The position numbers and the translations under genes were made by a program. Shown here piece after piece: positions 4,362 to 46,067 of a DNA stretch of 64,000 nt. Within the stretch, counting starts at the first letter, position 1; each line of letters starts with the position of its first letter. Source of the stretch: Promicromonospora panici (GTDB taxonomy: Bacteria; Actinomycetota; Actinomycetes; Actinomycetales; Cellulomonadaceae); the NCBI RefSeq assembly GCF_900608595.1, contig NZ_UWYY01000014.1, positions 124,001 to 188,000 of the forward strand, given 5' to 3'. The notes under the pieces were generated by a model that ran no database searches, was not told where the DNA came from, and saw only the letters and a program-made list of their open reading frames with translations.

Positions 4362-4433
4362 AGCAGAGATCGACGAAGTAGAGCGCCTGTCCAAGTCTTT
4401 CCGGACAAGCGCTCTACTTCGTCGATCTCTGCT
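4362..4433. repeat. Long hairpin, family A (31-bp arms), probable terminator
   Basis: Arms 4362-4392 and 4403-4433 pair over 31 bp with a single G-T wobble around a 10-nt loop. It lies just past the stop of the NlpC/P60 gene and upstream of usp, so it would terminate the former. The inner 19 nt of the left arm (cgaagtagagcgcctgtcc) recur exactly in the hairpin at 8469-8551, so the two are copies of one repeat family and not independent terminators. Confidence 0.8.
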
Positions 4434-4454
4434 GTGCAGTTCTGCGCGGCTGGA

Positions 4455-5240: not shown

Positions 5241-5257
5241 GTAGTACCTCTCCTTGA

Positions 5258-7495: not shown

Positions 7496-7543
7496 CCAGC
7501 GCGATCACGTCCGCAATATCCCTCGCATGGGTAGTTCTGCCTA

Positions 7544-7572
7544 TTGTCCGGGGTACAGGGACTCTGTAACGT
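7544..7572 (+). promoter_or_regulatory. Candidate sigma-70-type promoter upstream of the MHYT gene
   Basis: TTGTCC (7544-7549) and TAACGT (7567-7572) are separated by exactly 17 nt, a plausible vegetative -35/-10 pair. A 42-nt leader follows before ATG 7615. It is only a sequence match. Confidence 0.35.
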
Positions 7573-7614
7573 TTCCGCAACAGTGGGAACCATTTCGAGG
7601 GGCTGTTCAACACC

Positions 7615-13385: not shown

Positions 13386-13404
13386 GGTCCGATGTTCCCC
13401 TTCG

Positions 13405-15486
13405 TTACCCGATGCTGCTTGACGACGTGCCGCGGACGGCGGCCAGGAGCATCTGCTCCACGGCCGGTACCCGGGTCAGCACGTAGTCCACGCTGAGGTG
13501 GTGGAAGTCGCGGTAGACGGGGTGGCTCGTGTCGCCGACGCCGCAGCGGGTGTCGTCGCACGTCTCGGACCAGACGCCGTCCCAGGTGGTCACACCGTAC
13601 TTCGTCCAGATGCCGGCGCTGATGTCGGGCAGGTCGCCGTTGGACTCCTCGGCCTCGGCGCGTGTCATGCTGCAGTCGCCGAGCCCGGGCCAGGGCCGGG
13701 TGAGGCATTCGAGGGGGTCGACGTCGAGCTTGGGGTTGTCCTTGACGGCTACGACGGCGGGGATCGTGGCGGTGAGGTGGGCGAACAGGGCGTCGTTGGC
13801 GCTCGTCCAGGCGTCGCGGACCTCGTTCTCGGTCATCAGGGTGCCGTCGGCGTGCTGCATGCGGTCGGCGTAGATCTGGGCCTGGCCGACGACGACGGCG
13901 TCGGGCCGCAGGTCGTCGACGACGCGCAGGGACTCGGCCTGGAAGTCGCCGCAGGGGCCGCGTTCGGCGGGCTGCTGCACGTTGATCTCGGCGGCGGGGC
14001 AGCCGTGCCGCCAGCGGACGGCGAGGCGCAGGCCGGCGTCGCGCGCCGCGACGTCGAACGCGGGGATCCAGTGCATGGCGTGGGAGTCGCCGAGGAGCAG
14101 CACCGTGGTGTCGGCCTCGACGTCGCCGAGCATGCAGACGTCGGTGCCCGACGTCGTCGGGGTGATCTCGGTGCAGCCGTAGGGCTTGGGCTCGGCGCCT
14201 GCCTCGACGGCGGTGGCGTACGGCTCTCGTTCCAGCACCGCCCCGGTCGCGACGCGGGTGCCGACGGTGAGGCCGCCCACGGCTAGCCCCATCACCAGCG
14301 TGACGGCGGCGGTGGCCCGCCACGACTTCAGGGCCCGGCTGAACCGGATGGGGTTCTCTACCCAGCGGTAGGTCATGACGGCGGCGCCGAGCGCGCCGAG
14401 GGAGGCGAGCACCTTGATCCAGATCGCGTCGTCCTGGACGGCCGCGGTGGTGAGCACCACGAACGGCCAGTGCCAGAGGTACCAGGAGTAGGAGACGTCG
14501 CCGAGCCGCTGCAGCATGGGCAGGTCGAGCACGCGGTCCACCCAGGTGCCGGACGCCGGGACGCTGCCCGCGGCGAGCACCAGGAGCGCGCCGCCCACGG
14601 GCAGCAGGGCGATGGTGCCGGGGAACGGGTCGGTCTCGTGCACGAACGCGAAGGAGAGCGCCAGCAGTGCGAACCCGGCGGTGCCGAGCAGCGCCCGGAG
14701 CAGCCTGGGGCGCAGGCGGGTGCGTGGGGCGAGCCGGTCCCACGGCAATGTCGCGACGAGCGCGGCGCCGGCGAACTCCCAGGCGCGGGTCGGCAGGATG
14801 TAGAACGCCCAGTCCGGCGCGGCTGTCGTCAGCCAGACCGAGGCCGCCAGCGACACGACGAACGTCCCGCCGAACAGGACCTGCAGCATGCGGCGCGCCG
14901 GGACGCGGGTGCGCCGGGCGATCGCGAGGGCCAGCAGGATGAGCAGCGGCCAGAAGATGTAGAACTGCTCCTCGATGCCGAGCGACCACGTGTGCAGGTA
15001 GGGGCTCGGGGTGACGGAGTCGGAGAAGTAGTTCTGCCCCTGATAGGGAAACAGGAGGTTGGAGACGAACAGCATGGAGGCCGCGCCGTGCCACGCGAGG
15101 CGCCCCCAGACCAGCGGCGACAGGAGCAGCAGGCACACGATCAGCGTGACGCTCACGACCAGCGCGAGCGCCGGCACGAGGCGCCGCATGCGGCGGGTCC
15201 AGAACTGGACCAGGTCGACGGTCCCGCTGCGGCCGACCTCGCGCAGCAGCAGCGAGCTGATGAGGTACCCGGAGATGACGTAGAAGACGTCGACGCCGGT
15301 GAACCCGCCGGGGATCGCGATCCCCGCGTGGTAGACGACGACGGCGAGCACGGCGACGGCCCGGAGCCCGTTGATGTCCGTGCGGAACCCGTGGCCGGCG
15401 CCGGACGCCGGGTCCGAGCCTGGACCACGGGGTTCCGGGGATCGTCCGGTGGGTCGGTCGACGGCGGTGGTCGTCGCCTGCGCCAA
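13405..15486 (-). CDS. OafA-like acyltransferase 3 with C-terminal SGNH domain (1)
   Basis: This 693-residue membrane O-acyltransferase probably adds acetyl groups to a cell-surface polysaccharide. The N-terminal acyltransferase-3 domain (about 35-390, ten helices) has the catalytic-region H in VVYHAGI, GGFTGVDVFYVISGYLI and SLGIEEQFYIFWP. The periplasmic C-terminal SGNH domain has GDSHAMHW with the nucleophile Ser, and DFHHLSVDY near the end as a possible Asp/His pair. Start is TTG 15486, supported by AGGAG 5 nt upstream. The two-domain layout matches OatA/OafA-type enzymes, where the membrane part moves the acyl group and the SGNH part transfers it. Confidence 0.85.
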   Translation of the reverse strand: MAQATTTAVDRPTGRSPEPRGPGSDPASGAGHGFRTDINGLRAVAVLAVVVYHAGIAIPGGFTGVDVFYVISGYLISSLLLREVGRSGTVDLVQFWTRRMRRLVPALALVVSVTLIVCLLLLSPLVWGRLAWHGAASMLFVSNLLFPYQGQNYFSDSVTPSPYLHTWSLGIEEQFYIFWPLLILLALAIARRTRVPARRMLQVLFGGTFVVSLAASVWLTTAAPDWAFYILPTRAWEFAGAALVATLPWDRLAPRTRLRPRLLRALLGTAGFALLALSFAFVHETDPFPGTIALLPVGGALLVLAAGSVPASGTWVDRVLDLPMLQRLGDVSYSWYLWHWPFVVLTTAAVQDDAIWIKVLASLGALGAAVMTYRWVENPIRFSRALKSWRATAAVTLVMGLAVGGLTVGTRVATGAVLEREPYATAVEAGAEPKPYGCTEITPTTSGTDVCMLGDVEADTTVLLLGDSHAMHWIPAFDVAARDAGLRLAVRWRHGCPAAEINVQQPAERGPCGDFQAESLRVVDDLRPDAVVVGQAQIYADRMQHADGTLMTENEVRDAWTSANDALFAHLTATIPAVVAVKDNPKLDVDPLECLTRPWPGLGDCSMTRAEAEESNGDLPDISAGIWTKYGVTTWDGVWSETCDDTRCGVGDTSHPVYRDFHHLSVDYVLTRVPAVEQMLLAAVRGTSSSSIG

Positions 15487-15583
15487 TTTTTCTCCTGCGG
15501 TCGTTCCGGACGGGTGCGCGGCTCACACCATAACGGGCACATCGGGTCGGCTTGCCCCGGTAACGAGGAGGGTGTGAGGAGAG

Positions 15584-16123
15584 TCAACCGAGGAACACGT
15601 GGGAGCAGATCAGCACCGGCGCGTCGGCGGTGCCGCCGTCGCGCACGCATCCGATGGCGCCCCGCACGAGGTCGGCGCTCACCAGGTTGTCGCGGTGCGT
15701 CGGTGAGTCCAGCCAGGCCAGCACCACGTCCTGCGGCGGACGGTCGGTGCGGCTGAGGTTCTCCGCGGCGAGCGTGCCGCCCGGGCAGCTCTTCTGCACC
15801 GGCAGCAACGGCGCGTGCGCCAGCTCGGGCGCCCCGATCAGCGCGGCGGCCCGGTCCGTGGCGGCGCCCTCGAGGCACTCGTCGTGCTGCAGCGTGGGCA
15901 GGTCGAGCTGCGCGCGGACCGCGTTCACGCCGTCCTCCAGGGCCGCCGCGTACTGCTCGCGGTCGGCCAGGTCCACCTCGTCGGACGGCGTCCAGGTCGG
16001 CTCGGGCACGGCGGTCGCCTGCTCGGACCGGCGCGGGCCGGCGTCGTCGCCCGTCGAGCAGGCGGTGAGCAGCACGGCGGCCGTGAGGAGCGTGGCGGCG
16101 AGGCGGGTCGGGGTGCGGAGCAC
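15584..16123 (-). CDS. CAP/SCP-domain lipoprotein (1)
   Basis: This 179-residue exported lipoprotein has signal peptide LAATLLTAAVLLTAC (lipobox Cys at about residue 22). The CAP (cysteine-rich secretory/PR-1) domain shows the usual His and Glu of the CAP cavity (ELAHAPLL, AAENLS) and the WLDSPTHRDNL motif. Two pairs of Cys could form disulfides. The start is taken as GTG 16123, which puts the signal peptide at the N-terminus; the ribosome site is poor. The C-terminus (ICSHVFLG) is nearly identical to that of the next gene, so the two are tandem paralogues. The function of bacterial CAP proteins is generally unknown. Confidence 0.78.
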   Translation of the reverse strand: MLRTPTRLAATLLTAAVLLTACSTGDDAGPRRSEQATAVPEPTWTPSDEVDLADREQYAAALEDGVNAVRAQLDLPTLQHDECLEGAATDRAAALIGAPELAHAPLLPVQKSCPGGTLAAENLSRTDRPPQDVVLAWLDSPTHRDNLVSADLVRGAIGCVRDGGTADAPVLICSHVFLG

Positions 16124-16169
16124 GACGTCGATTCGACACCGCGCACCCGCCGTCCACAACCGGAACGGT

Positions 16170-17033
16170 CTATCCGAGGAACACGTGGGCGCAGATCATG
16201 ACGGGCGCGGCAGGATCCCCGCCGTCCGGCACGCAGGCGATGGCGCCGCGGGTCAGGTCGCCGTTCAGGATGTTGGCGCGGTGTCCCTCGGAGTCCATCC
16301 AGCCCTGGGCCGCCTCGGCCGGTGACCATCCGCCCTTGGCCAGGTTCTCGGCCACGGCCATGGTGGGGCAGGTTTCGAAGATCGGCTCCAGCGGCGCGTG
16401 CGCCAGCTCCTGGCCGATCAGCGCCTGGGCCCGTTCCAGCGCCACGTCGTACGCGCAGTCGTCGTGGGTCAGGGCCGACAGGCCGTTCGCGGTGCGATGC
16501 CCGTTGACGGCGTCCTCCAGGGCCGCCGCGTACTGCACGGCGTCGGTCAGGTCGGGCTCCGCGCCGGTATCGCCTCCCGAACCGGAGTCGCCGCCGGTTC
16601 CCCCGCCAGAGCCGCCGTCCGAACCACCAGTGCCGTCGCCCCCTGAGCCGCCTCCCGAGCCCTCACCGCCCGATCCGCCGCCCCCGGGACCGGGCGCGGG
16701 ATCACGGTCGGCGCCGCGCGACGCCGCCCCGCTGGGCGCGGGCTGGACGTCCACCGCCGCGGACTCCTGGGTGTGCTCCCCCGTGATGGACCCCACCGAC
16801 GTGGGGCGCGACGCGGGCTCCGGCGACGGTGCCACCTCGACGGGCGCGGCCGCGCTCACGACGCCGGGGGCTATCCCCGGTGCGGGCCTCGGCTCGGCGC
16901 CGGGGTCGAGGAGACCGGCGCACGCCGTGAGGCATACGCCCACCGCCACGGCGAGCGCCGCGCGGGCGACGGCCCTGCCCTGGGCGCGCCCCGGCCGGGC
17001 CGCGGACGACGTCGTACAGCGTGCTGGGGACAC
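16170..17033 (-). CDS. CAP/SCP-domain lipoprotein (2) with long Gly/Ser linker
   Basis: This 287-residue paralogue of the neighbouring CAP lipoprotein has signal peptide with lipobox GVCLTAC and a Pro/Ala-rich stalk. A linker of about 45 residues is almost only Gly, Ser, Asp and Thr. The CAP domain (about 155-287) has ELAHAPLE, AVAENLAKGGW, GWMDSEGHRANIL and a C-terminal ICAHVFLG. The linker probably spans the wall so the domain is displayed outside. I choose GTG 17033 because TATTGT at 17047-17042 lies 8 nt upstream, suggesting a leaderless message. Much longer in-frame extensions upstream lie over the divergent lyase promoter and lack any signal peptide. Confidence 0.78.
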   Translation of the reverse strand: MSPARCTTSSAARPGRAQGRAVARAALAVAVGVCLTACAGLLDPGAEPRPAPGIAPGVVSAAAPVEVAPSPEPASRPTSVGSITGEHTQESAAVDVQPAPSGAASRGADRDPAPGPGGGGSGGEGSGGGSGGDGTGGSDGGSGGGTGGDSGSGGDTGAEPDLTDAVQYAAALEDAVNGHRTANGLSALTHDDCAYDVALERAQALIGQELAHAPLEPIFETCPTMAVAENLAKGGWSPAEAAQGWMDSEGHRANILNGDLTRGAIACVPDGGDPAAPVMICAHVFLG

Positions 17034-17041
17034 AAGTGCGG

Positions 17042-17047
17042 ACAATA
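17042..17047 (-). promoter_or_regulatory. -10 box (TATTGT) of a leaderless promoter for CAP lipoprotein 2
   Basis: On the minus strand TATTGT ends 8 nt before GTG 17033. It matches TAnnnT and the spacing seen at four other starts in the window. Confidence 0.42.
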
Positions 17048-17196
17048 CCGGCGATTGCGGCGGTACGGAATGCCCGGAACGTCGCCCGGCGCGCACGACC
17101 ACCCGGCTCCGGACACCATGGTCCAGACCTCGCGCACACGATGCGCCGCCGCACGACGTCGACCAACCGGACGGCGGCCGACAAGGAGAGACGGAT

Positions 17197-19617
17197 CTGA
17201 CCACGCGACGCGCCCCACGACACGCCGAGCACGCCGAGCAGAGCGGGCAGAGCGGGCAGAGCGGGCAGAGCGGGCAGGACGTCCGGGCCGTCACCCGGCG
17301 GCAGGCCCTGCGGATCGGCGGGATCGCGCTGGGCGCCTCGGCGCTCGTGGTGGGCGGGCTGGTGGCGTGGGACGCGATCCGCGACCGGGCCGAGCCGTTC
17401 GCCGCGGTCCGCGCGCGGTGGCGGGATCAGCTGACCGGCCCCTCGCCGGACGACGCCGACGCGGTCGCCGGACGGCTGCTCGGCGAGATCACCCCGGACG
17501 GCCGGTGGTCCGACCTGGCTCTGACGAGCCGGGAGCGGACGATCGGCCTGCGGATCGACTACGAGCGGCTCCGGTCGATAGCCCGCGCCTACGCCACCCC
17601 GGGCTCCCGCTACGAGCACGACGACAGCGTGCGGGACCTCCTCCTGAGCAACCTCGACCAGCTCCACGAGACGTACCGCGGGAACATCCGGCGGTCCGGG
17701 AACTGGTGGGACCGGGAGGTCGGCATCCCGCTGCAGCTCACCGCCATCTCCATGCTGCTGTACGACGACCTCGACGCCGATCGGCTCGAGCGCTGGATGG
17801 CGGCCGTGCGCGCGCACACCCCGGCGCCGAAGTACACGGCGGCGAACCGCGCCTGGACCGGGCGGGTGGTGGTCGAACGCGCGCTCCTGCTGGACGACGA
17901 GGAGGCCCTCGCCGCAGGGCTGCGGGGCATGACGCCGGCGTTCCGGCCCACCACCTCCGGCGACGGGATCTACGCCGACGGCTCGTTCCTGCAGCACGCC
18001 GTCCACCCCTACTCCGGCGGCTACGGGCTCTCCCTGCTGACGTCGGCCGCGTCCGTGCTCGCGCTCCTGCACGACACGCCGTGGCAGCTCTCGGGTGAAC
18101 CTGTGGACAACCTCCTGAGCTGGGTCGACGACGGCCTGGTCCCGTGGCTGCACGCCGGGGCGGTGCTCGCCCCGGTGCGGGGCCGCAACATCGCGCGCGC
18201 TTCGGTCCGGGACCACGACGCCGGTCAGACCGCGGCGTCCGCCCTGCGCCTGCTGGCCCGCGCCGCGGACGACGACCGCGCGCGGCGCTGGACCGGGCTG
18301 GCGGCCTACGCCTCCGGGGCCGCGGGCGACGGCGTCGAGCCGCTGGCGCCGCCCCAGGGCACCAGGATCTTTCCCGCGATGGACCGGGTGGTGCACCGGC
18401 GGCCGGCGTTCACGATCGCGCTGGCGATGTCGTCCGCGCGGATCGCCGGCTACGAGTCGATCGGCGCGGAGAACCTGCGCGGCTGGTACACCGGCAGCGG
18501 GGCGTACTACCTCTACGACGCGAACGGCTCCCCGTACGACGACCACTTCTGGCCGACGGTCGACGCCGCGCGCATCCCCGGGACCACGGTCGCCGCCGGC
18601 GCCCCGGCCGACTCCGCCGGGGCGGGCTTCCGCGGCGACAAGCGCTGGGTGGGCGGCGTCGCCCTCGGCAGCCGCGCGGCCGTCGGGATGGCGTTCCGGC
18701 ACCCGGCGGACAAGGGGATGCGCGAGGTATCGGGCAAGAAGTCGTGGTTCCTGCTCGACGACGAGATCGTCGCGCTCGGCACGGGCATCGGGTCGGCGTC
18801 GGGCCGAGTCGTGGAGACAGTGGTCGACAACCGGAGGCTCCAGGACCCGGCCGGCCAGCGGCTGGTCGTCGACGGGCGGCCGGTGGTCCCGGCGGGCGGC
18901 GCGCCCGTGGACGGCAGGCCCACGGGCGGCGGCTCCGTCGACGGCGTCGGCGCAGACGGCGGCTCTGCAGGCAGCGAAGCCGCGGTGCTCGCCGACGACG
19001 CCGGGTGGGCCCACCTCTCCGGCCCCACGGAGGACACCGGCATCGGGTACGTGTTCCGCCCGGGCCAGCGCCTGCGCCTGCTCCGCGAGCGCCGCACGGG
19101 CCGCTGGGCGGACATCAACCGGAGTGCGGCGCACCGCGACCCGGCGGTGCGGTCGAACGACTTCGCGACGCTCTGGCTGGAGCACGGGGTGAACCCGGTC
19201 GACGCCCGGTACGGGTACGCGATACTGCCCGGCGCGACGCCGGCTGAGGTGGCCGCCTATGCCGCAGCCCCGCGTACGGAGGTGCTCGCGAACGGGCCGG
19301 ACGTCCAGGCCGTGCGCCGCGACGGAACACTGGCGATGAACGTCTGGACGGCGACGGCGCCCGAGACGGCGGGGGTGTCGTGCGACCGGCCCGCGTCGAT
19401 CCTGCTGGTCCGGGACGGTACGCGGCTGACCGTCGCGGTCGCCGACCCGACGCAGCGGCTGGAGCACGGCCTCCGGATCACGGTCGCGCAGCCGGCGAAG
19501 CGCCTGGTCGAGGGCGACGGGCGAGTCACGGTCGACCGCTTGGGGCCGGGCATCTCGCTCACGGTGGACGCCAACGGGGCCCGGGGCGAGACGATCACGG
19601 CAACCTTCGAGGTGTGA
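17197..19617 (+). CDS. Tat-exported polysaccharide lyase family 8 (hyaluronate/xanthan/chondroitin lyase type)
   Basis: This 806-residue secreted lyase acts by beta-elimination on uronic-acid polysaccharides. After a short (QSG)n stretch comes a Tat signal, TRRQALRIGG, with a hydrophobic core. The alpha domain has the NWWDREVG aromatic patch. The catalytic triad sits at N217 (TAANRAW), H267 and Y276 (DGSFLQHAVHPYSGGYG). These spacings (50 and 9) match N349/H399/Y408 of pneumococcal hyaluronate lyase. The beta domain shows YDDHFWPTVDAARIPGTT and KSWFLLDDEIVALGTGI. The only start with a ribosome site is CTG 17197 (AAGGAG, 8 nt spacing). No ATG, GTG or TTG fits before the signal peptide. The true substrate is unknown; an endogenous surface polymer is possible. 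Confidence 0.85.
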   Translation: MTTRRAPRHAEHAEQSGQSGQSGQSGQDVRAVTRRQALRIGGIALGASALVVGGLVAWDAIRDRAEPFAAVRARWRDQLTGPSPDDADAVAGRLLGEITPDGRWSDLALTSRERTIGLRIDYERLRSIARAYATPGSRYEHDDSVRDLLLSNLDQLHETYRGNIRRSGNWWDREVGIPLQLTAISMLLYDDLDADRLERWMAAVRAHTPAPKYTAANRAWTGRVVVERALLLDDEEALAAGLRGMTPAFRPTTSGDGIYADGSFLQHAVHPYSGGYGLSLLTSAASVLALLHDTPWQLSGEPVDNLLSWVDDGLVPWLHAGAVLAPVRGRNIARASVRDHDAGQTAASALRLLARAADDDRARRWTGLAAYASGAAGDGVEPLAPPQGTRIFPAMDRVVHRRPAFTIALAMSSARIAGYESIGAENLRGWYTGSGAYYLYDANGSPYDDHFWPTVDAARIPGTTVAAGAPADSAGAGFRGDKRWVGGVALGSRAAVGMAFRHPADKGMREVSGKKSWFLLDDEIVALGTGIGSASGRVVETVVDNRRLQDPAGQRLVVDGRPVVPAGGAPVDGRPTGGGSVDGVGADGGSAGSEAAVLADDAGWAHLSGPTEDTGIGYVFRPGQRLRLLRERRTGRWADINRSAAHRDPAVRSNDFATLWLEHGVNPVDARYGYAILPGATPAEVAAYAAAPRTEVLANGPDVQAVRRDGTLAMNVWTATAPETAGVSCDRPASILLVRDGTRLTVAVADPTQRLEHGLRITVAQPAKRLVEGDGRVTVDRLGPGISLTVDANGARGETITATFEV

Positions 19618-19719: not shown

Positions 19720-21813
19720 CTACCTGGCGAGCGCCGCCCGGATCCGCTCGACGGCATACGACCCGAGCGTCCTGGCCCAGGTAGCCGTGATGTGGCCGCC
19801 GGTGTCGCGGTACACCACCACGTTGCCGATCACCGACGGGCACCGGCCGCCGGCGCAGTACCGGTCGGTCAGGTCGACCACGTGGGCGCCCGGCACGTCG
19901 CGCGCCGCGGCGACCAGCGGGTCCGGCTCGGCGAGCGCGCGGGCGGCTGGCGTCCCGCAGCCGTCGTCGACCGAGAAGGTCACCGCGGCCACGCACCGCA
20001 CCGACTCCGCGTCGGCGTCCGGGTTGTCCGCCAGGACCACCACCTTCGTCACGCTGTCGGCGACCGGCCGCATGGCATCGACGTAGTCGTCGTGGGCCAG
20101 CGCGTGCCGCGCGCGATCGCCGGGGGCGCGCGAGGCCGTCGTGAGGACGACGTCGTACCCGCCCGACTCCAGCGACTCCTGGATCTCCGGCAGCCCTCGG
20201 CACGTCCCGTCGCGCTCCGCGAGGTGCCACCGGCACCCGTTGCCGACGTAGGTGTCGAGCCGCCAGCCGGCGGCGTCGAGCTGCGGCTCCAGCATGGGCA
20301 CGAGCTGTGCGGCGTGGCTGTCGCCGACCAGGGCGACCCGAGTCGCCGTCGGCCGGTCGCTGCCGAACGTGCAGGTCTTCGCGGGCTCGCCCTGGTAGGC
20401 GTAGCAGTCGTAGGCGCCGCCGTCGTCGTAGGACGCGCTCGCCGGGTCGGGGGCCGCGGCGGGCCCGGCGTTCAGCGCGCAGTCGTGGCGCGGGTCGAGC
20501 GCGGCGGCGCCCACGCAGTCGGCCGGGTCGGCGGCGGTGCCGCCGGCCAGGACGGCGTCGGGCGCCGCGAGCCGGGGCGGGGCCGCGACCCGGGCCGCCG
20601 CATGACCAGCCACCCCGAGCAGCACGACGACGGCGCACGCGGCCGCGAACCGGTACCACCCCGCCGGCGGCCCGAGCCCGGTCCGCACGCCCCGCCGGAA
20701 CCACACCGCATGCCGCGCGGGCGCCTCCAGCCAGCGGTACGACGCCGCGGACAGCACGAACGTGAGAGCGAGGCCGAGCACGACGTAGATCGCCGACCCC
20801 TGCGGCACGAAGGCCAGGAGCAGCACGGCCACCGGGAAGTGCCAGAGGTACAGGCTGTACGAGATCTCGCCGACGTACTGGCCGGCGCGGTGGGTGAGCG
20901 GCCACAGGGCGACCGGGCCGCCCACGCCCGCCGCGATGACGACCGCGGCGGACAGCACCGGAAGGAGCGCCCACGGCACAGGGAAGCCCGCCCCCTCGGG
21001 GGTCACCGCTATCGCGACGGCGATGCCGGCCAGCCCCAGCCAGGCGAGCACCGAACGCACGGGTTCCGAGGTGATGCGCAGGTGGTTCGACAGGACGGCG
21101 ACGAGCGCCCCGACGCCCAGCTCCCAGGCCCGCGACGAGGTCGTGAAGTACGCCCAGGTGGGCTGCGCCGTCGTCTCGAGAAGACCCCAGGCCAGGGACG
21201 TCACGGTGAGGACGGCGACCGCCACCCCGGCAACGAGGCGAGCGTGCGAACGCCGCCAGCCGAGGTGCCGCATGCCGACGATCAGCAGGCCGAGCAGCAA
21301 CCACGGCCAGACCAGGTAGAACTGCTCCTCGACCGCGAGCGACCAGTAGTGCTGGAGCGGGGACGGCGGCTGCGACTCCTGGAAGTAGTCGACGCCCTGG
21401 CGCGCGAAGTGCCAGTTGCCGACGAAGAGGAACGAGAGAACGGCGTCGCCCACCACGCTCCGGAACCGCTCGGCGCCGAGCAGGGCGAAGGACGCGCCGA
21501 CCGTCACCAGCAGGACGAACGCCGCCGCGGGCAGGATCCGCTTGGCGCGGCGCGCGTAGAAGGTGGAGAACGAGATGGTCCCGGTCCGCTCGTACTTCCG
21601 CAGCAGGAGCCCGGTGATGAGGAAGCCGGAGATCACGAAGAACACGTCCACGCCCACGAACCCGCCCCGCGGCCAGCCGAGCAGATGGTCCGCGATGACC
21701 GCGAGGACCGCCACCGCCCGGAGCCCCTGGACGTCCGGGCGGAAGCCGGCGGGCCGCCGTCCGAACCTGCCTGCCGGTGCCGGTGGAGCCGACCGGACTG
21801 CGCTCACTGCCAT
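19720..21813 (-). CDS. OafA-like acyltransferase 3 with C-terminal SGNH domain (2)
   Basis: This 697-residue membrane O-acyltransferase has the same two-domain build as the 13.4-15.5 kb gene. The acyltransferase-3 part (about 25-370) shows FRPDVQGLRAVAVLAV, GGFVGVDVFFVISGFLI, SLAVEEQFYLVWPW and ISYSLYLWHFP. The SGNH part has ALVGDSHAAQL (nucleophile Ser) and YRDTGGHITATWA, the Asp-x3-His block, close to the C-terminus. ATG 21813 is preceded by a GGGGGG-rich ribosome site. A longer in-frame extension upstream has no support and would run across the divergent sulfotransferase start. It likely acylates the surface glycan made in this region. Confidence 0.87.
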   Translation of the reverse strand: MAVSAVRSAPPAPAGRFGRRPAGFRPDVQGLRAVAVLAVIADHLLGWPRGGFVGVDVFFVISGFLITGLLLRKYERTGTISFSTFYARRAKRILPAAAFVLLVTVGASFALLGAERFRSVVGDAVLSFLFVGNWHFARQGVDYFQESQPPSPLQHYWSLAVEEQFYLVWPWLLLGLLIVGMRHLGWRRSHARLVAGVAVAVLTVTSLAWGLLETTAQPTWAYFTTSSRAWELGVGALVAVLSNHLRITSEPVRSVLAWLGLAGIAVAIAVTPEGAGFPVPWALLPVLSAAVVIAAGVGGPVALWPLTHRAGQYVGEISYSLYLWHFPVAVLLLAFVPQGSAIYVVLGLALTFVLSAASYRWLEAPARHAVWFRRGVRTGLGPPAGWYRFAAACAVVVLLGVAGHAAARVAAPPRLAAPDAVLAGGTAADPADCVGAAALDPRHDCALNAGPAAAPDPASASYDDGGAYDCYAYQGEPAKTCTFGSDRPTATRVALVGDSHAAQLVPMLEPQLDAAGWRLDTYVGNGCRWHLAERDGTCRGLPEIQESLESGGYDVVLTTASRAPGDRARHALAHDDYVDAMRPVADSVTKVVVLADNPDADAESVRCVAAVTFSVDDGCGTPAARALAEPDPLVAAARDVPGAHVVDLTDRYCAGGRCPSVIGNVVVYRDTGGHITATWARTLGSYAVERIRAALAR

Positions 21814-21994
21814 GCGTATTCCCCCCGTGACGTCGCGTGTGGCGGTGCGCCACCATCCTGGGGTGGCGGACTTCGGCCCGCAGTTCAGAAAAGGTCGGGC
21901 GATCGGACGATTCGGGTCGCACGCGGAACATTCATCGCATATTTTTGCGGGGCGCCAGCGATCACATTTCCAGCCGACCAGCTGAGGTTTCCCG

Positions 21995-22951
21995 ATGTCC
22001 GGAACGAGCACGAGCAGCACGCCCTGGAACGACCGTCGCATCGCCTTTGTCGGCGGCCTTCATCGCAGCGGAACCACCCTGATCGCCCGAATTATTGGTT
22101 CGAGCCCGAATGCTTGCGGATTGACCGGAACGGGCGCCGTCATGGACGAGGGTCAGCACATTCAGGACACTTATGTGGGCGGTCTAGGCAATACGTCCGA
22201 ATGGTCGTTTCACCCACAGGCGCACCTCACCGAGGAGGACGCGAGGCGCTTGCCCGACGCCGGTACGCGGCTCTGGGCGAGCTGGTCGCCCTACTGGGAC
22301 CTCGACCGCACGGTGCTCGTCGAGAAGTCGCCGCCCAACCTGACGAAGATGCGCTTCTTCCAGGAGATCTTCCCGAGGTCCCGCTTCATCGTCGTCACGA
22401 GGCATCCCGTGGTACAGGCGCTGGCCGTGCGCAAGTGGGCGACGCGCACCCGCGGGCGGTTCACGTACGGGTTCCCACGGCTGGTCGAGCACTGGGTGCA
22501 CGCGCACGACGTGTTCGCCGAGGACGCCCTGCACATCGAGAACCTGCTGGTGCTGCGGTACGAGCACCTGATGCGCGACCCCGCGAACGAGCTCGGCCGC
22601 GTCGCGCGGTTCCTCGACATCGAGCTCGGCGACGACGCGGTGGACGCCGTCGACGCCGGGCGGAGCAACCGGTACGCCGAGCTGTGGCGGACCGGCGGCC
22701 GGGGTGAGCTGGCCGGCCGGGTCCGGCGCCACGTCGCGCACCTCGGGTCACGCCGGGGCACGCCCCGGGCCGACCTGCTGCGCGACGTGACCGACGCCGC
22801 GCTGCTCCCCCGCTACCGGAACGTCGTCAGCGAGCACCTCGGAGACCGGATCCGCGCCCACGGCTACGACCTGGACGCACTGGACGAGGCAGCCCCGTGG
22901 GCCCCAATGGTGCACGGCGCTCCGGCGCCCCTGGCGGCGGACGTCCGATGA
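21995..22951 (+). CDS. Sulfotransferase (PAPS-dependent, Sulfotransfer_3-like) 1
   Basis: This 318-residue cytoplasmic protein has the PAPS-binding 5'-phosphosulfate loop FVGGLHRSGTTL near the N-terminus. The 3'-phosphate block is SRFIVVTRHPVVQALAVRKW in the middle. LVEKSPPNLTKM is typical of the group, and YEHLMRDPANELGRVARFL is the usual C-terminal helix pattern. The reaction is transfer of sulfate from PAPS to a hydroxyl, presumably on a sugar or lipid-linked glycan. The downstream gene starts inside its stop codon (ATGA), so the two are coupled. The upstream intergenic stretch is lower in GC than its surroundings. No PAPS synthesis genes are in the window. Confidence 0.82.
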   Translation: MSGTSTSSTPWNDRRIAFVGGLHRSGTTLIARIIGSSPNACGLTGTGAVMDEGQHIQDTYVGGLGNTSEWSFHPQAHLTEEDARRLPDAGTRLWASWSPYWDLDRTVLVEKSPPNLTKMRFFQEIFPRSRFIVVTRHPVVQALAVRKWATRTRGRFTYGFPRLVEHWVHAHDVFAEDALHIENLLVLRYEHLMRDPANELGRVARFLDIELGDDAVDAVDAGRSNRYAELWRTGGRGELAGRVRRHVAHLGSRRGTPRADLLRDVTDAALLPRYRNVVSEHLGDRIRAHGYDLDALDEAAPWAPMVHGAPAPLAADVR

Positions 22952-23907
22952 GAGCCCCGACCCGCATCGTCTACGTCACGGGCTCCGGCCGCAGCGGCAC
23001 GAGCACGCTCGCCGGAGTGCTGCGCGAGTTCGGCCTGCAGGTGCCGGGGCCTGAGGTCGACGCCGACGCGTCCAACCCGCGTGGCTTCTCCGAGCCGCAG
23101 TGGGTGGTGGACTTCCACAACTTCATGCTGAAGGCGGCGGGCGTGCAGACGTCGGACCCGCGCCCCATCGCCTGGCACCTCGTCGACCGGGCGGGCGCCG
23201 AGGGGAACGCGCTCGGCCAGATCCGGGCGTGGCTCGACGACCAGATCGCGCGGTACGGCGACCTCGTCATCAAGGACCCGCGGCTGCTCTGGTTCCTCGA
23301 GCTCTGGCAGGAGGCCGCGACGGGCACCGGGGCCAAGGCGTCGTGCATCACGATGCTGCGCCCGCCGGCCGAGGTCGTCGGGTCCAAGGCCGCCTACTAC
23401 AAGGGCCGCGGAGTGGTGGACCGCGTGGCGGGGTGGATCAACCTGATGCTCGGCACCGAGCTCGCCACGCGGGCGACGCCGCGGGCGTTCGTCCGTTACG
23501 GCGACCTGATCCATGACTGGGACGAGCCGGTGTTCGGGGCTGCCGCCGCGCTCGACCTGCCCATGGTCGACCCCCGCAACACGGACGCGGTCCACCGGGT
23601 GGATGCGTTCATCGACCCCGCGCTGCGCCGCGTCGGTGCCACGTGGAACGACGTGCCCGTCCCGGCGCCGCTGCGCGCGCTGGCCGACGACACGTGGGCC
23701 GCGCTCGACGCCCTCCCCGGGCACGACGACGCCGGGACCCGCGCCGAGTTCGATCGGCTCCGCGCGCTCTACCCGTACGTGCACCGCAAGGTCGCGTCGT
23801 CGCCGGCCCGGCGGATCGCCCGCATGGTGCCGACAGAGGTGGTGCCGCCCGCGGTCCGCCAGAGCGTCGCGGGCATGCTCTGGCGCTCCCCGGACGCCGC
23901 AAACTGA
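22948..23907 (+). CDS. Sulfotransferase-like protein 2
   Basis: This 319-residue protein has a P-loop-like PAPS-binding motif YVTGSGRSGTSTLAGVL at the N-terminus. LVIKDPRLLWFLELW follows, as in sulfotransferases acting on glycans. The expected arginine/serine 3'-phosphate region reads CITMLRPPAEVVGSKAAYY. The C-terminal third (about 240-319) is not recognisable. ATG 22948 overlaps the stop of sulfotransferase 1 by 4 nt, and I prefer it over an upstream in-frame ATG inside that gene. The pair may sulfate two positions of one acceptor, or one may be a scaffold. It is distinct enough from its neighbour not to be a recent duplicate. Confidence 0.75.
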   Translation: MRAPTRIVYVTGSGRSGTSTLAGVLREFGLQVPGPEVDADASNPRGFSEPQWVVDFHNFMLKAAGVQTSDPRPIAWHLVDRAGAEGNALGQIRAWLDDQIARYGDLVIKDPRLLWFLELWQEAATGTGAKASCITMLRPPAEVVGSKAAYYKGRGVVDRVAGWINLMLGTELATRATPRAFVRYGDLIHDWDEPVFGAAAALDLPMVDPRNTDAVHRVDAFIDPALRRVGATWNDVPVPAPLRALADDTWAALDALPGHDDAGTRAEFDRLRALYPYVHRKVASSPARRIARMVPTEVVPPAVRQSVAGMLWRSPDAAN

Positions 23908-23928: not shown

Positions 23929-26900
23929 TCACGCGGCCGGTACCTCACCCAGCCGGGCCCGCACCTCCTCGGCCTCGGGCATGCCGAGCTCGGTGTAGAT
24001 CGTGCAGGCCTGCTCGTAGTGCGTCCGCGCCAGGTCCGGGTCGCCCAGGGCGCGGTGCGCGTGGCCGACGCCGGCATGGGCACGTGCCTGCTGATCGCGG
24101 GAACCCACCTGGACGGCGATACCGAGCGCCTCGGTGTGCGACCGCAGCGCCTCGGCCGCGTCGCCCGCGAGCCGGGCCGCCTCGCCCAGCCCGTTGAACG
24201 ACCAGGCCTGGCCGCTGACGTCGGCGGTCTCGCGGCACACGACGAGCGCCTGCCCGAAGTACGACGCGGCGTCGTCCGGCTCCTCCAGGTAGAGGTGGAG
24301 CATGCCGAGCGAGTCCAGCACGTACGCCCGCATGGTCACGATGCCCAGGGCCTCGGCAGTCGCCAAGGACCGCCGCAGCCGCCCTGCCGCGGTCGTGTAG
24401 TCGCCCCGCTCCAGCTCGGTGTTGGCGAGGTTGTTGAGCGCGATGGCCGCGCAGTACCGCGCACCGATCTCCTGGAAGATCGCGAGCGCCTCCTGGCACG
24501 CCTCGTAGGCCGCGGTGATGTTCCCCAGCCCGGCCTCGACGCCGGCGACGTTGTTGCGCACCGACGCCTCCACGAAACGGTCGCCGGACCGCCGTGCCAC
24601 GGCCAGCGCCCGGTAGTGGCCCTCCCGGGCGGCCTTGTGGTTACCGCGCCGATGGTCGATCGAGGCCAGGTTGGTCAGCGTGTACGCCTCGCCCACCAGG
24701 TCCCCGGCCTGCCGGAACAGCACGAGCGCCCGGTGGAAGTGTTCGAGGGCGGTCTCGTACCGGCTGGAGCGTGAGTGCCCGACACCGAGCTGGCGCAGGA
24801 CCTGAGCCTGACCGGTTAGGTCACCTGCTTTCTCGGCGGCGCGCAGGGCGTGCGCGTTGACGACGAAGAGGTCGACCGGATGCGCGCTGTTCACGTAGCG
24901 GTGCAGGATCACGGCGAGATCGACGACGTACCGGTTGTCGCGGCGGTCCGCGGCATGTTCGGCGACCGCGGCGAGGCAGCTCCGCTCGGCCTGGAGCCAG
25001 TCGCGCGCCGACGTCGGCTCCGACAGGTCGGGAAGCGGGGCGTCCGGCGCCTTGTCGGGCTGGTACTGCACCTCTGCCGGGTACAGGGTGCTCACCGCGG
25101 TGTAGGCGGCACCCTGGTAGTAGTCCAGGAGCCGTCGCTCCGCTGTCTGCCGGTCCTCCTCGGACTCCTCGGCGGACGCCAGGTGGGTGGCGTAGGCGCG
25201 CAGGAGGTCGTGCATGCCGTAGCGGCCGGGTCCGGTCCGGTGCAGCAGATGGGCGCGGACGAGCGTCTCCAGGACCCGGCGGGCCGCGGTCGGCGCCAGG
25301 CCGGTCAGGGCCGCGGCCACGTACTGGTCCAGATCCGGCCCGGGGTGCAGGCCCAGCCGCCGGAAGGTGCGGGCCGCTTGCTCCGGCAGGTGCTGGACCG
25401 ACCACGAGAAGACGGCGTGGACCGCCGCGTAGGGGTCGTCGCCGGGGTCCAGGAGCTCGAGCCGCTCCTGCCGGTCGGCCAGCTCCGCCACGACGTCGGC
25501 CAGGGGTCGGTCCGGCTGGGACGTCGCCAGCACGGCGGCGACCCGCAGCGCCAGCGGAAGCCGGGCGCACTGCTCGGCGAGCGTCGCGGCGGCGCCCGGT
25601 TCGGCAACCACCCGCTCGCCGATCAGCCGGTGCAGCAGGTCGACCGCCTCGGCGTCCGGCAGCAGGTCGAGACCCACCTGATGGGCACCGTGGACGGCGA
25701 CCAGCCCGGCCAGGCTGTCCCGGCTGGTCACCACGACCGCCGAGCCACCGCTCCCGGGCAGCAGCGGCCGCACCTGGGCGACGCTGCCGGCGTTGTCCAG
25801 CACGATCAGCATCCTGCGTTCGGCCAGCTCGCTGCGGTATCTGGCGGCTCGTTCGTCGTCGTCCAGGGGGACATCGTGCTCCGGGACGCCGAGCGCGGTC
25901 AGGAACCGGGCGAGTGCGTCGGCGGGCCGCACGGGCTGCTCCGGGTCGTAGCCGCGCAGGTTCACGTAGAGCTGCCCGTCGGGGAACCGGTCGGCGACCC
26001 GGTGCGCCCAGTGCACGGCGAGCGCCGTCTTGCCGACCCCGGCGGTCCCGCCGATCGCGGTGATCACCACGGCGCGCGCCGACCCGTCCTCGGCCGGGGC
26101 GGACAACAGCTCGTCCAGGCGCCGCAGGTCGGCGTCGCGCCCGGTGAACCCGGACACGTCGAGCGGCAGCTGGGCGGGACGAGGCGCCCGGCTGACGCCG
26201 GCGGTGTCGGTCGGGTCGGCAGAGTGAGCGGTGTCGGCGGCCCGGCCGCCCGCATCCGGATCCGGTGCCTCGAGCCGCCGTACGGCCAGCTCCGGATCAT
26301 GCCGCAAGATCCGCTGGTGCAGCTCGCACAGCGCCGCCCCGGGGTCGCTGCCGAGCTCGTCGGCCAGCCGCTCCTGGACCAGCCGGAAGTGCGCCAGGGC
26401 ATCGGCCTGCCTGTCGCACCGGTACAGCGCGAGCATCAGCTGCCCGGCCAGACGCTCGTCGAGCGGGTATGTCTCCGCTGCGGCGGCCACCTCGGGCAGG
26501 AGCTGCGCGTGCTCGCCACGCCGCAGCAGCAGGTCGTAGTGATCCAGGCAGGCGGCCAGCCGCTCGGCCGTGAGCGTCAGGGCGAGGGACCGCAGCCAGT
26601 CGCTGTCCAGGTCTGCGAACGGTACGCCCTGCCAGAGTGCCATGGCGTCCTGCCACAGGGCGTCGGCGCGGCCGTCGTCGGCGCACCTGGCCTGCGCGAC
26701 CAGCGCGCGGAACTGGTGCAGGTCCACCGCGGCCCGTTCGACGTCGAGCACGTAGCCGCCCGACCGGCGTGTCGGCGCCGGGCAAGCTTCGGCGTCGAGC
26801 ACGGACCGCAGCCGCGAGATGTAGCTGTGCAGCGTCTGCCGCGCGCTGCGCGGCGGCGTCGTGCCCCAGACCCGCTCGACCAGCTGGTCGAGCGAGACCG

Positions 26901-27018
26901 GTACGCCCGGCTCGACCAGCAGTGCCGCCAGGACGGCCCGCTGACGTGCCGTGCCGAGCGGGACGGGCCCACGGTCGCCCAGGGCAGACACGTGACCGAG
27001 CACCTGAAACCGGACCAT
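23929..27018 (-). CDS. SARP/AfsR-family regulator with BTAD, NB-ARC and TPR domains
   Basis: This 1029-residue transcription activator has, in order: an OmpR-like winged helix (about 15-90, PRSARQTLHSYISRLR), the bacterial transcriptional activation domain (95-245, DLHQFRALVAQAR and ERLAACLDHYDLLLRRGEH), an NB-ARC ATPase with P-loop GTAGVGKTALAVHW near 325 and Walker B MLIVLDNAG near 400, and a C-terminal half of tetratricopeptide repeats (about 700-1020). AfsR-type proteins of this shape switch on secondary metabolism or morphogenesis genes, usually after phosphorylation or ligand sensing. Start ATG 27018 follows GGGGAG. It is convergent with the sulfotransferase pair, and a hairpin separates it from the secreted-protein genes upstream. 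Its targets are not visible. Confidence 0.88.
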   Translation of the reverse strand: MVRFQVLGHVSALGDRGPVPLGTARQRAVLAALLVEPGVPVSLDQLVERVWGTTPPRSARQTLHSYISRLRSVLDAEACPAPTRRSGGYVLDVERAAVDLHQFRALVAQARCADDGRADALWQDAMALWQGVPFADLDSDWLRSLALTLTAERLAACLDHYDLLLRRGEHAQLLPEVAAAAETYPLDERLAGQLMLALYRCDRQADALAHFRLVQERLADELGSDPGAALCELHQRILRHDPELAVRRLEAPDPDAGGRAADTAHSADPTDTAGVSRAPRPAQLPLDVSGFTGRDADLRRLDELLSAPAEDGSARAVVITAIGGTAGVGKTALAVHWAHRVADRFPDGQLYVNLRGYDPEQPVRPADALARFLTALGVPEHDVPLDDDERAARYRSELAERRMLIVLDNAGSVAQVRPLLPGSGGSAVVVTSRDSLAGLVAVHGAHQVGLDLLPDAEAVDLLHRLIGERVVAEPGAAATLAEQCARLPLALRVAAVLATSQPDRPLADVVAELADRQERLELLDPGDDPYAAVHAVFSWSVQHLPEQAARTFRRLGLHPGPDLDQYVAAALTGLAPTAARRVLETLVRAHLLHRTGPGRYGMHDLLRAYATHLASAEESEEDRQTAERRLLDYYQGAAYTAVSTLYPAEVQYQPDKAPDAPLPDLSEPTSARDWLQAERSCLAAVAEHAADRRDNRYVVDLAVILHRYVNSAHPVDLFVVNAHALRAAEKAGDLTGQAQVLRQLGVGHSRSSRYETALEHFHRALVLFRQAGDLVGEAYTLTNLASIDHRRGNHKAAREGHYRALAVARRSGDRFVEASVRNNVAGVEAGLGNITAAYEACQEALAIFQEIGARYCAAIALNNLANTELERGDYTTAAGRLRRSLATAEALGIVTMRAYVLDSLGMLHLYLEEPDDAASYFGQALVVCRETADVSGQAWSFNGLGEAARLAGDAAEALRSHTEALGIAVQVGSRDQQARAHAGVGHAHRALGDPDLARTHYEQACTIYTELGMPEAEEVRARLGEVPAA

Positions 27019-27146
27019 CGTCTCCCCTGCCTCGGCGTAGAGCACCCGGAGGCAGAGAGTAATCGGCGGCGGACCAGGCGCTACAGCAAATGCAGCGTCG
27101 CGCAAAGGGTTGCGGTCGCACGCCCTCAGGCGGTAGGCCCCGCCAA

Positions 27147-28855: not shown

Positions 28856-29707
28856 TCAGACGAAGAGGGTGCGGTCCGCCAGGCTTCCCGCGATCCGGCC
28901 CGCCGTCACGGCCAGCCGCTTGACCCCGCGCCGGCGCACCAGCGGGTCGCGCGAGAGCGTCCTGGCGAGGCCGCCGGCCACCGTGACCGGTACGCGCCAC
29001 ACCGGCAGGCGCGGCAGGCCCGCCGCGCGGAAGCGCTGGAAGACGCGCACCGACTGGCGGCCGTACCGGTACTGCTGGCGGGCCAGGTCGCGCAGGCGCT
29101 CCCGCTCGTAGTAGACGACGACGGCGTCGGGCACGGCCCGGGTGGTGAACCCGGCGAGGTGCGCCCGGTAGAAGAAGTCGGACTCGTCGCCGCCGCCGAG
29201 CAGCGACTCGTCGAACCCGCCGACGGCGTCGTGCACCGCCCGGGCGAAGCCGCAGTTGGCCCCGATCGGCCGCGGGACATGCCAGAGCTGCGTGTAGGTG
29301 CCGGGGTCCGTGCCGAGCACGGTCTCGTCGGGCAGCCGCCGCTCGACGGCGCCCCCGACGCAGTCGGCCCCCGCGCGGCGGGCGCGGTCCATCGCCGAGA
29401 TCCAGCCCGGGGTGACGACGTCGTCGGCGTCGCACAGCAGCACGAAGTCGCCCTTGGCGTGCGCCACCCCGACGTTGCGCGCATGGTTGATACCCGGGAT
29501 CGCGCCCGCCCCGACGCCGCGGAAGCGCCGGTCGTTCCGGGCCGCGGCCGAGACGACGTCGCGGCTGTCGTCGCGCGAGCCGTTGTCCGCGACGAGCACC
29601 TCGAAGTCGCCGGCGAAGTCCTGGCCGGCGAGGGCTCGCAGCTGCCGGCCGAGCGTCGCCGCCCCGTCCCGGCAGGGAATGACCACGGAGTACGACGGCG
29701 ACCTCAT
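28856..29707 (-). CDS. Family 2 glycosyltransferase
   Basis: This 283-residue GT-A fold enzyme begins YSVVIPCRDGAATLGRQL, with VLVADNGSRDDS (nucleotide-binding Asp), the metal-binding LLCDADD motif, and GGFDESLLGGGDESDF with the catalytic-region ED-type acid. The C-terminal helix (ERLRDLARQQYRYGRQ) is basic and amphipathic, suggesting membrane association. It acts on the cytoplasmic face on a lipid-linked glycan; donor and acceptor cannot be told. ATG 29707 overlaps the stop of the preceding polymerase-like gene (ATGA), so it is the last gene of a three-gene coupled operon. Confidence 0.88.
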   Translation of the reverse strand: MRSPSYSVVIPCRDGAATLGRQLRALAGQDFAGDFEVLVADNGSRDDSRDVVSAAARNDRRFRGVGAGAIPGINHARNVGVAHAKGDFVLLCDADDVVTPGWISAMDRARRAGADCVGGAVERRLPDETVLGTDPGTYTQLWHVPRPIGANCGFARAVHDAVGGFDESLLGGGDESDFFYRAHLAGFTTRAVPDAVVVYYERERLRDLARQQYRYGRQSVRVFQRFRAAGLPRLPVWRVPVTVAGGLARTLSRDPLVRRRGVKRLAVTAGRIAGSLADRTLFV

Positions 29708-30867: not shown

Positions 30868-31949
30868 GACACCAGCGCCCCGCCGGTGGCCGTCGCGTAC
30901 GCCATGACGACGCCGTCGTGCAGGGCCTCCTCGTCCATCTCGCCGACGAGGTGGTCTCCCGACTCGATCATGTGCAGCCGCTGCTCCGCGTCCTCGATGG
31001 CGGCGCGGGCGGCGATCGCCGCCTCCGCCGGTGACTCGACGGCGGTGAGGCGCGAACCCTCGAACGCCGGGATCTCGCGCACGATGGTCGGCAGGCCGAC
31101 GCGGGCGGCGTCCAGCACGCTGATCGGGAACCCCTCGTACGAGGCGCAGTGCAGGTAGACGTCGGAGGCGGCCATCTGCCGCATGACGTCGTCTGCGGCG
31201 AGCCACCCGGTGACCTCGACGCCGACGTCGGTCAGCTCGCGCACGAGGACCGGGTCACCGTCGCCCAGCCAGCGGAAGGACAGCCCCAGGCCGAACCGGT
31301 CAGCGAGCCGCGCGGTCTCCGCGAAGAACCGCGGGTCCTTCTGGGCGACCACGCGGCCGACCATCGTGACGGTCGGCCGGTCGCTGACCACCGCCCCCGA
31401 GCGCGCGCCGGCCTCCCGGACCGCCGCCGACGACGGGGCGTTCGGGATGCGCACGATGTCCCGCACGCCCATGGACCGGGCGAGGCTCTCTTCGCGCGGG
31501 CTCACGGCCGCGACCACCGTCCCGTTCGCCGCGAGGGCCTGCTCCAGTGCGCGGACCACCCGGCGCACGGGCCCCGGCAGGTTCGGCCGCTCGAAGTAGT
31601 AGCAGTGCGGCTGGTAGACGACGGGGACCGGCAGCTTCCTGACCCGCGTGTACACCCCGGCCCAGCTCGAGTGCGCGTGCACGACGTCGGGCGCCACGTC
31701 GTCGACGACGCACCGGACCGCCCGCACCCGGGCCGCGATCCCGTCCGGAAGGTGTGCGGTGCTCTTGTACTCGCCGCGCCCTTGCGTGCTCTCGATCCCG
31801 GTGGACAACAGGTGGTGTTCGGCCTCTGGAACCAGTTCCGTGATGCGGTCGATCGCGCGCCCGACGCCCCCGGAATAGCGATCCGTGACATGCAGAATTC
31901 GCAACTGCGCCCCTCCGTCGCGTGCCCCATTTCGCCCCGAAAAGGACAT
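30864..31949 (-). CDS. Family 4 glycosyltransferase (GT-B fold)
   Basis: This 361-residue cytoplasmic enzyme opens with LRILHVTDRYSGGVGRAID and DVVHAHSSWAG, the acceptor-domain signatures of GT4. The donor domain has VTMVGRVVAQKDPRFF and ASYEGFPISVLDAARVG, where Glu begins the donor-binding E-x7-E motif and the second Glu is replaced by Asp. Nearest in style to transferases of capsule loci. It is the first gene of a coupled operon reading GT4, Wzy-like, GT2, divergent from the tyrosine kinase gene across 162 nt that probably hold both promoters. Confidence 0.85.
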   Translation of the reverse strand: MSFSGRNGARDGGAQLRILHVTDRYSGGVGRAIDRITELVPEAEHHLLSTGIESTQGRGEYKSTAHLPDGIAARVRAVRCVVDDVAPDVVHAHSSWAGVYTRVRKLPVPVVYQPHCYYFERPNLPGPVRRVVRALEQALAANGTVVAAVSPREESLARSMGVRDIVRIPNAPSSAAVREAGARSGAVVSDRPTVTMVGRVVAQKDPRFFAETARLADRFGLGLSFRWLGDGDPVLVRELTDVGVEVTGWLAADDVMRQMAASDVYLHCASYEGFPISVLDAARVGLPTIVREIPAFEGSRLTAVESPAEAAIAARAAIEDAEQRLHMIESGDHLVGEMDEEALHDGVVMAYATATGGALVS

Positions 31950-31960
31950 AAATCCCAGCG

Positions 31961-32067
31961 GGCGCGCTTCTACCGAACGTCGGTTAGATTACCAATGGAA
32001 GCGCAGGTAGGCGCGGCAACGGGACCCACTGGACGACTCTGTACGACGCAGATCGGCGCGCTTCTAT
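31961..32067. repeat. Direct repeat pair in the divergent region upstream of the tyrosine kinase
   Basis: ggcgcgcttcta occurs exactly at 31961-31972 and again at 32056-32067, 95 nt apart, each followed by a [ct]cg and a gnnga-like stretch. Both copies lie in the 162-nt region between the divergent GT4 and Wzc-like genes. They could be regulator sites, or one could be a duplicated promoter part. No confident -35/-10 pair was found. Confidence 0.4.
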
Positions 32068-32111
32068 CGGCCGACCGAAACCGAACGATCGTGCATCATC
32101 AGGGGAACGCG

Positions 32112-39932: not shown

Positions 39933-39972
39933 GGCCACTCCTGGACAGGTACATCGAGGCTGGTGCGAGAAC

Positions 39973-40019
39973 GACCGCGCGCTGCCCCTCACCTCGACGG
40001 TGAGGTGCAGCGCGCGGTC
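39973..40019. terminator. 21-bp hairpin after the LAxTG gene
   Basis: Arms 39973-39993 and 39999-40019 pair over 21 bp with one mismatch and a 5-nt loop. It is placed between the stop of the LAxTG protein gene (40069) and the start of the sugar transferase (39932), where it would end or attenuate upstream transcription. Confidence 0.72.
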
Positions 40020-46060: not shown

Positions 46061-46067
46061 GGTTCGC

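Follow-up and report, generated by a model that had tools for sequence, protein, structure and literature searches.

Among bacteria, sulfated polysaccharides have been said to be exclusive to cyanobacteria, in the part of PMC8205485 used here. What, in an actinobacterium of the genus Promicromonospora, do two adjoining sulfotransferase-type genes do, and which glycan would they serve? The two genes, P1 and P2, lie in a 64-kb stretch of contig C14 (the whole stretch of DNA that was analysed, called the window below) in a genome of 6.58 Mb on 56 contigs. P1 and P2 form a coupled sulfotransferase pair that has a real PAPS supply and is found in most of the genus; the enzymes are of an ordinary kind, in a less studied setting.

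Organization and occurrence of the pair

The first-pass annotation had described a gene pair overlapping by 4 nt, and both open reading frames were found at the coordinates that it gave, with the overlap ATGA (Table 1). For P2, a longer reading from a GTG start at 22897 is the alternative. The identical overlap was present in all nine Promicromonospora genomes, the window included, in which both genes are readable in full. P1 and P2 are most likely produced from one message with coupled translation. A fusion of P1 and P2 in genome G004 was ruled out: a run of N, marking an assembly gap, breaks the pair there.

Within the genus, P1 was present in 12 of the 13 genomes and P2 in 11, and the two were adjacent in 10. 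G005 and G012 carry P1 without P2, and G008 carries P2 without P1; since each gene is thus found singly, in three genomes altogether, the coupling is not obligate. By eye, an open reading frame resembling a SARP-type regulator is next after P1 in G012 (locus L079), and another stands further downstream in G005 (locus L081). Outside the genus P1 is rare: a class-wide sample of 296 genomes included seven others with P1, and no P2 adjoined it in those seven within the short flanks examined.

Table 1. Coordinates of P1, P2, P3 and of the features discussed with them. Positions are those of the window unless contig C8 is named; "loci" are the seven related Promicromonospora loci.
Feature	Position	Strand	Remarks
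AT3-SGNH acyltransferase	13405..15486	-	relative near the pair in 7/7 loci
Second CAP-domain protein	15584..16159	-	relative near the pair in 7/7 loci
CAP-domain protein	16170..17294	-	start approximate
Polysaccharide lyase family 8	16198..19617	+	tested part 17203-19617, start approximate; beside the pair in 1/7 loci
AT3-SGNH O-acyltransferase	19720..21939	-	divergent from P1; 79% relative beside the pair in 1/7 loci
P1	21995..22951	+	318 aa; PAPS-type sulfotransferase, Pfam Sulfotransfer_3
P2	22948..23907	+	319 aa from ATG at 22948; divergent protein of predicted sulfotransferase fold
SARP-type regulator (BTAD, NB-ARC, TPR)	23929..27105	-	separates the pair from the polysaccharide genes; relative in 1/7 loci
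Family 2 glycosyltransferase	28856..29707	-	pair-proximal end of the polysaccharide cluster; 1/7 loci with a close relative
ORF with Wzz chain-length and tyrosine-kinase-type domains	31149..33884	+	start probably near 32113, by eye
Priming sugar transferase (Bac_transf)	38400..39992	-	
UDP-ManNAc dehydrogenase-type enzyme	46035..47318	+	NF008286 over cut-off
P3	55352..56092	+	third Sulfotransfer_3 protein (E 2.6e-19), after a glycosyltransferase gene
C8 locus	contig C8, about 37.9-66.1 kb		NeuB, NeuA-HAD, pyruvyltransferases, ABC exporter, APS kinase, CysQ-like, cysD, cysN

Identity of P1 and of other sulfotransferase-like genes

P1 matched the Pfam family Sulfotransfer_3 with an E-value of 1.6e-23 and 84.5 bits, against a cut-off of 27. 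Its P-loop, GGLHRSGTT at residue 20, has the residues H-R-S-G invariant across the eight rows of the P1 alignment (A2), and Arg136 of the 3'-phosphate motif is invariant as well. We take the P-loop and the Arg/Ser positions of P1 and P2 to be the 5' and 3' phosphate sites of the fold. The usual Ser eight residues after the Arg is Ala144 in all eight rows, and all six other sulfotransferase-like proteins of contig C14 conforming to this simple pattern have Ser there. Among seven distant P1 homologs the residue is Ala in five and Ser in two, so the family tolerates Ala at this site. In G003, the EKS motif of P1 has changed to NTS. The best PDB sequence matches of P1 were weak and were the tyrosylprotein sulfotransferases TPST1 and TPST2 (4e-5). 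A structure model of P1, for which the input was only eight closely related rows, was of too low confidence to be used (pLDDT 34). A search of PHROGs gave no match for P1, P2 or P3. The NCBIfam NoeE matches to P1 and P3 were set aside as short P-loop matches far below the cut-off.

Genome-wide, Sulfotransfer_3 gave 11 matches at E <= 0.1, nine of them over the cut-off (one raised by in-frame neighbours), and P2 was absent from these 11. Beyond the window end, four further P-loop sulfotransferase-like open reading frames were seen in locus L012, at 4380-5405, 6562-7608, 12946-14469 and 14466-15491 (adding 63000 gives the window coordinate). They lie near RgpF-type genes and have no Pfam sulfotransferase match; one of the four is related to P2, with 28% identity over 267 residues.

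Predicted fold and relatives of P2

The window P2 had no match in Pfam (E 0.01) or NCBIfam (E 0.1), and PDB sequence searches with the P2 profile and with P2 alone returned nothing. Its motifs are nevertheless all present: the P-loop GSGRSGTS at residue 12, Arg138 and Ser146. An AlphaFold2 model was built from 26 sequences, the window protein and those of 25 of the 42 P2 loci (alignment A1), and had a pLDDT of 85.1 and a pTM of 0.82. In a Foldseek search of this model against the PDB, all four matches at E <= 0.001 were sulfotransferases. VIA-align placed TPST1 first (Z 15.8, rmsd 3.8, 211 residues aligned), followed by TPST2, the olefin synthase and curacin sulfotransferase domains, and the mycobacterial sulfotransferases Stf9 (2z6v, Z 13.4) and Stf1 (2zq5, Z 12.7); the best kinase-type rows had Z 9.9. 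A kinase identity for P2 is thus not favoured, sulfotransferases being its best structural matches. Sequence identity with P2 is low throughout, at about 15% for TPST1/TPST2, 16% for Stf1 and 12% for Stf9. TPST1 and TPST2 are animal enzymes that sulfate proteins, whereas no sign of a protein acceptor was found here. Two Nocardioides orthologs of P2, both of those tried, matched Sulfotransfer_3 over the whole profile (1.6e-5 and 3.5e-5), with scores (25.7 and 24.6 bits) that narrowly miss the cut-off of 27. The first-pass annotation had called P1, P2 and P3 sulfotransferase-like, and this identity is upheld by Pfam for P1 and P3 and by the predicted fold for P2. As far as tested, neither P1 nor P2 folds as a kinase, the P2 model having a sulfotransferase fold and P1 being judged by its Pfam match.

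The P2 loci found numbered 42, namely seven from Promicromonospora, which are the closest named relatives, and 35 of Nocardioides type, one of them named Pimelobacter. No P1 relative was found within 6 kb of P2 in the Nocardioides-type loci. In 34 of the 35, a match resembling a family 2 glycosyltransferase directly precedes P2, on the opposite strand. These matches are weak (28 to 39% identity over about 90 to 133 residues); the one tried against Pfam (L049) was confirmed at 6.2e-39. Distant P2 matches were also found in 42 plasmid records, with 31 to 32% identity in the best 10 of the 42.

PAPS supply and proposed role of the pair

PAPS synthesis genes, which the first-pass annotation had proposed looking for, are present together on contig C8. 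One strong APS kinase match was found in the genome, at C8:60378-60836 (3.9e-58), besides two weak ones (1.5e-4 and 5.9e-4). Near it are a CysQ-like protein of the inositol-phosphatase family, which matches the CysQ model at 1.2e-25 without reaching its equivalog cut-off, a CysD above its cut-off, and a CysN recognised by eye from the translation. The genome has two PAPS_reduct-family matches in all, CysD and CysH. In NCBIfam, CysH scored over the cut-off of the phosphoadenylyl-sulfate reductase model (249.4 against 154) and of the cysH model (191.3 against 165.1), and under that of the specific APS reductase model (206.3 against 235.3) and of the PAPS reductase model (177.2 against 254.2). 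Its paired-cysteine motifs are presumably those of the iron-sulfur APS reductases. Should CysH prove to be an APS reductase, sulfation would be the sole use of PAPS.

Our preferred reading, held with moderate confidence, is that P1 sulfates a conserved envelope glycan from PAPS and that P2 is a looser, second sulfotransferase-type protein. CysD-CysN and the APS kinase would supply PAPS. P1 would then most likely transfer the sulfuryl group from PAPS to a sugar of an envelope glycan or of its lipid-linked precursor, before export, and the CysQ-like phosphatase would clear the resulting PAP. The PAPS site of the window P2 is intact, and this protein is probably an active enzyme that either places a second sulfate or assists P1. 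As the acceptor, a glycan kept across the genus is more likely than the polysaccharide made by the glycosyltransferase run of the window.

Loosened constraint on P2

The two genes differ in how strongly they are held. In the same nine genomes, pN/pS was 0.32 for P1 (bootstrap 0.27-0.37) and 0.51 for P2 (0.44-0.58), so that the ranges are separate, and both values are below 1. The P1 set comprised 11 genomes and the P2 set nine, G004 being left out on account of its assembly gap, and the bootstrap was run on the same nine. By block, pN/pS of P2 was 0.76 for residues 1-27, which hold the P-loop, 0.65 for residues 106-150, and highest, 0.80, for residues 61-105, a block with no PAPS site. The C-terminal block 240-287 had a value of 0.18 with an ordinary amount of synonymous change, which points to restraint on the protein.

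Core P-loop residues of P2 (15-19) have changed in four of the ten proteins of the genus, those of G003, G008, G010 and G011, and Ser146 is also lost in G003, G008 and G011. A single change at the loop margin (residue 14 or 20) is found in each of the G006, G007 and G009 proteins, and those of the window, G001 and G002 have no P-loop change. In the aligned Nocardioides orthologs the PAPS motif is kept. The P2 tree joins G011 to the intact G001 (support 0.98), places G010 in a clade with the intact G007 and G009 (support 1.0, inner order unresolved) and groups G003 with G008 (0.88); these placements imply at least three losses. P2 seems, from its sequences, to be losing catalytic parts in several relatives, and in some species it may lack catalytic activity.

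We then compared departures from the ancestral residue between the PAPS-motif columns and the other conserved columns of P2, keeping those columns in which the genus majority is the Nocardioides residue (10 of the 11 in the motif, 102 of the 156 others); the G008 protein was included in these counts and in the tree only. Departures occurred in 19 of 100 cells of the motif columns and in 135 of 1020 cells of the others (Fisher p 0.13). A loss of the PAPS motif exceeding that of the other conserved columns is hence unsupported. The erosion thus belongs to a wider relaxation of P2 that spares the C-terminal block, and catalysis is not singled out.

That P2 now serves P1 as a non-catalytic partner, or is in the course of being lost, is conceivable but somewhat unlikely. 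The core PAPS-site residues missing from four of ten proteins, the higher pN/pS of P2 than of P1 and the tightly held C-terminal block would all fit it. However, the motif columns depart no more often than the other conserved columns, the loosest block is not a PAPS-site block, and the window's own P2 is intact, so that plain relaxed selection may be enough. The stronger form, in which P1 and P2 make up a two-part sulfotransferase with P2 turning from an active enzyme into a non-catalytic partner as separate lineages lose its PAPS site and selection keeps its C-terminal block, is rather unlikely.

The neighbouring polysaccharide cluster

The first-pass annotation had placed the pair in a surface-glycan setting, and its neighbours are as described there: an AT3-SGNH O-acyltransferase, a polysaccharide lyase of family 8 and CAP-domain proteins. 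From this it had proposed a sulfated extracellular polysaccharide or glycolipid. The surface-glycan setting stands, and the tie to the polysaccharide of the window's own glycosyltransferase run is not supported. AT3-SGNH and CAP genes lie upstream of the pair in all seven Promicromonospora loci, and downstream the species differ: ORF starts inspected by eye indicate polysaccharide genes in some and other genes elsewhere. The location of the pair is constant, and the adjoining polysaccharide genes change. Because the lyase is beside the pair in one of the seven related loci and the downstream genes differ, the pair cannot be tied to the polysaccharide of the window run.

It is unlikely that the pair sulfates the acidic polysaccharide that the adjoining Wzx/Wzy-type cluster (about 28856-55346) would produce, in the manner of synechan. 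The synechan xss cluster of Synechocystis 6803 contains two sulfotransferase genes, xssA and xssE, together with Wzx/Wzy-type genes (PMC8205485, in the part used here). In the window the pair is physically close to the cluster, P3 lies within the glycosyltransferase run, and in G002 polysaccharide genes directly follow the pair. However, the constant neighbours of the pair are the AT3 and CAP genes, and no polysaccharide cluster was recognised in G005, G009 and G010 in the stretch read by eye from ORF starts. The synechan cluster also differs in that it is cyanobacterial and plasmid-borne, and no coupled pair is described in that part of the paper (PMC8205485). The window pair, by comparison, is not part of the cluster core and persists where the cluster is different.

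Further features were seen in this region. The UDP-ManNAc dehydrogenase-type enzyme (Table 1) suggests an aminouronic acid in the window polysaccharide. At 56094-60889, a DUF5722 protein and an alpha-L-rhamnosidase-type protein adjoin the glycosyltransferase run. A tRNA scan of the 64-kb window found none.

A candidate Kdn locus on contig C8

The first-pass annotation considered sulfated glycans uncommon in actinobacteria outside mycobacterial sulfolipids, but a sulfated wall polymer has been reported for this very genus. In Promicromonospora citrea 665T, the cell-wall glycan includes a teichulosonic acid of 7,9-pyruvylated Kdn with glucose-3-sulfate, alongside a pyruvylated galactan (PMC6801904, in the part used here, citing Dmitrenok et al. 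2017). There the structure is described without genes. No sulfotransferase is named for the Promicromonospora polymer in the literature covered, a weak negative, as the primary report (Dmitrenok 2017) lies outside that scope.

In our genome the locus that fits this polymer is that on contig C8 (Table 1), not the window pair. Its NeuB has a Pfam match of 4.9e-85 and falls under the cut-offs of the N-acetylneuraminate and pseudaminate synthase models. Also there are a NeuA-type cytidylyltransferase with a HAD domain, a family 8 glycosyltransferase and an ABC exporter, the exporter recognised by eye. Four of the six PS_pyruv_trans matches of the genome are at this locus, one of the four under the cut-off. 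Between the pyruvyltransferase genes lie two open reading frames with KTGTT P-loops and no Pfam match, which appear sulfotransferase-like from their P-loop and their similarity to a KTGTS group on contig C14. The KTGTS group likewise lacks a Pfam sulfotransferase match. APS kinase and NeuB are both present in all 13 genomes of the genus, in every case on one contig and less than 9 kb apart. C8-type loci were examined in nine of the 12 other genomes, some of the stretches ending before the whole locus. A KTGTT gene was seen in four of the nine (G002, G006, G007 and G008) and was not seen in the other five (G004, G005, G009, G010 and G011), some of which are represented by incomplete stretches; its presence in only four of nine counts against a simple one-locus answer.

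The C8 locus is nonetheless a likelier source of the sulfated Kdn polymer than the window pair, since it fits the chemistry of the polymer, links APS kinase to NeuB throughout the genus and has two sulfotransferase-like genes of its own. That the pair instead makes the glucose-3-sulfate of a P. citrea-type Kdn wall polymer is improbable. Such a role would agree with the report of the polymer in the genus, with the distribution of NeuB, APS kinase and P1 (13, 13 and 12 of the 13 genomes), and with the five C8-type loci in which no KTGTT gene was seen and another enzyme may be needed. The two candidates adjoining the pyruvyltransferase genes here, and the KTGTT genes in four other loci, argue against it. 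As for P1, P2 and P3 being P-loop kinases or other nucleotide enzymes, which share the P-loop fold and appear lower in the structural match lists of P2, this is highly improbable, because P1 and P3 exceed the Pfam sulfotransferase cut-offs and the significant Foldseek matches and top VIA-align rows of P2 are sulfotransferases.

Implications

With P1 as the putative sulfotransferase of a conserved envelope glycan and P2 as its looser companion, the genus contrasts with the view of sulfated polysaccharides given at the outset, having a reported sulfated wall polymer, a NeuB-linked PAPS supply in 13 of 13 genomes and many sulfotransferase-like genes. Named genes are now available for finding the enzyme that puts sulfate on an actinobacterial wall glycan, and the coupled pair lets one ask why a sulfotransferase gene persists while its cofactor site erodes.
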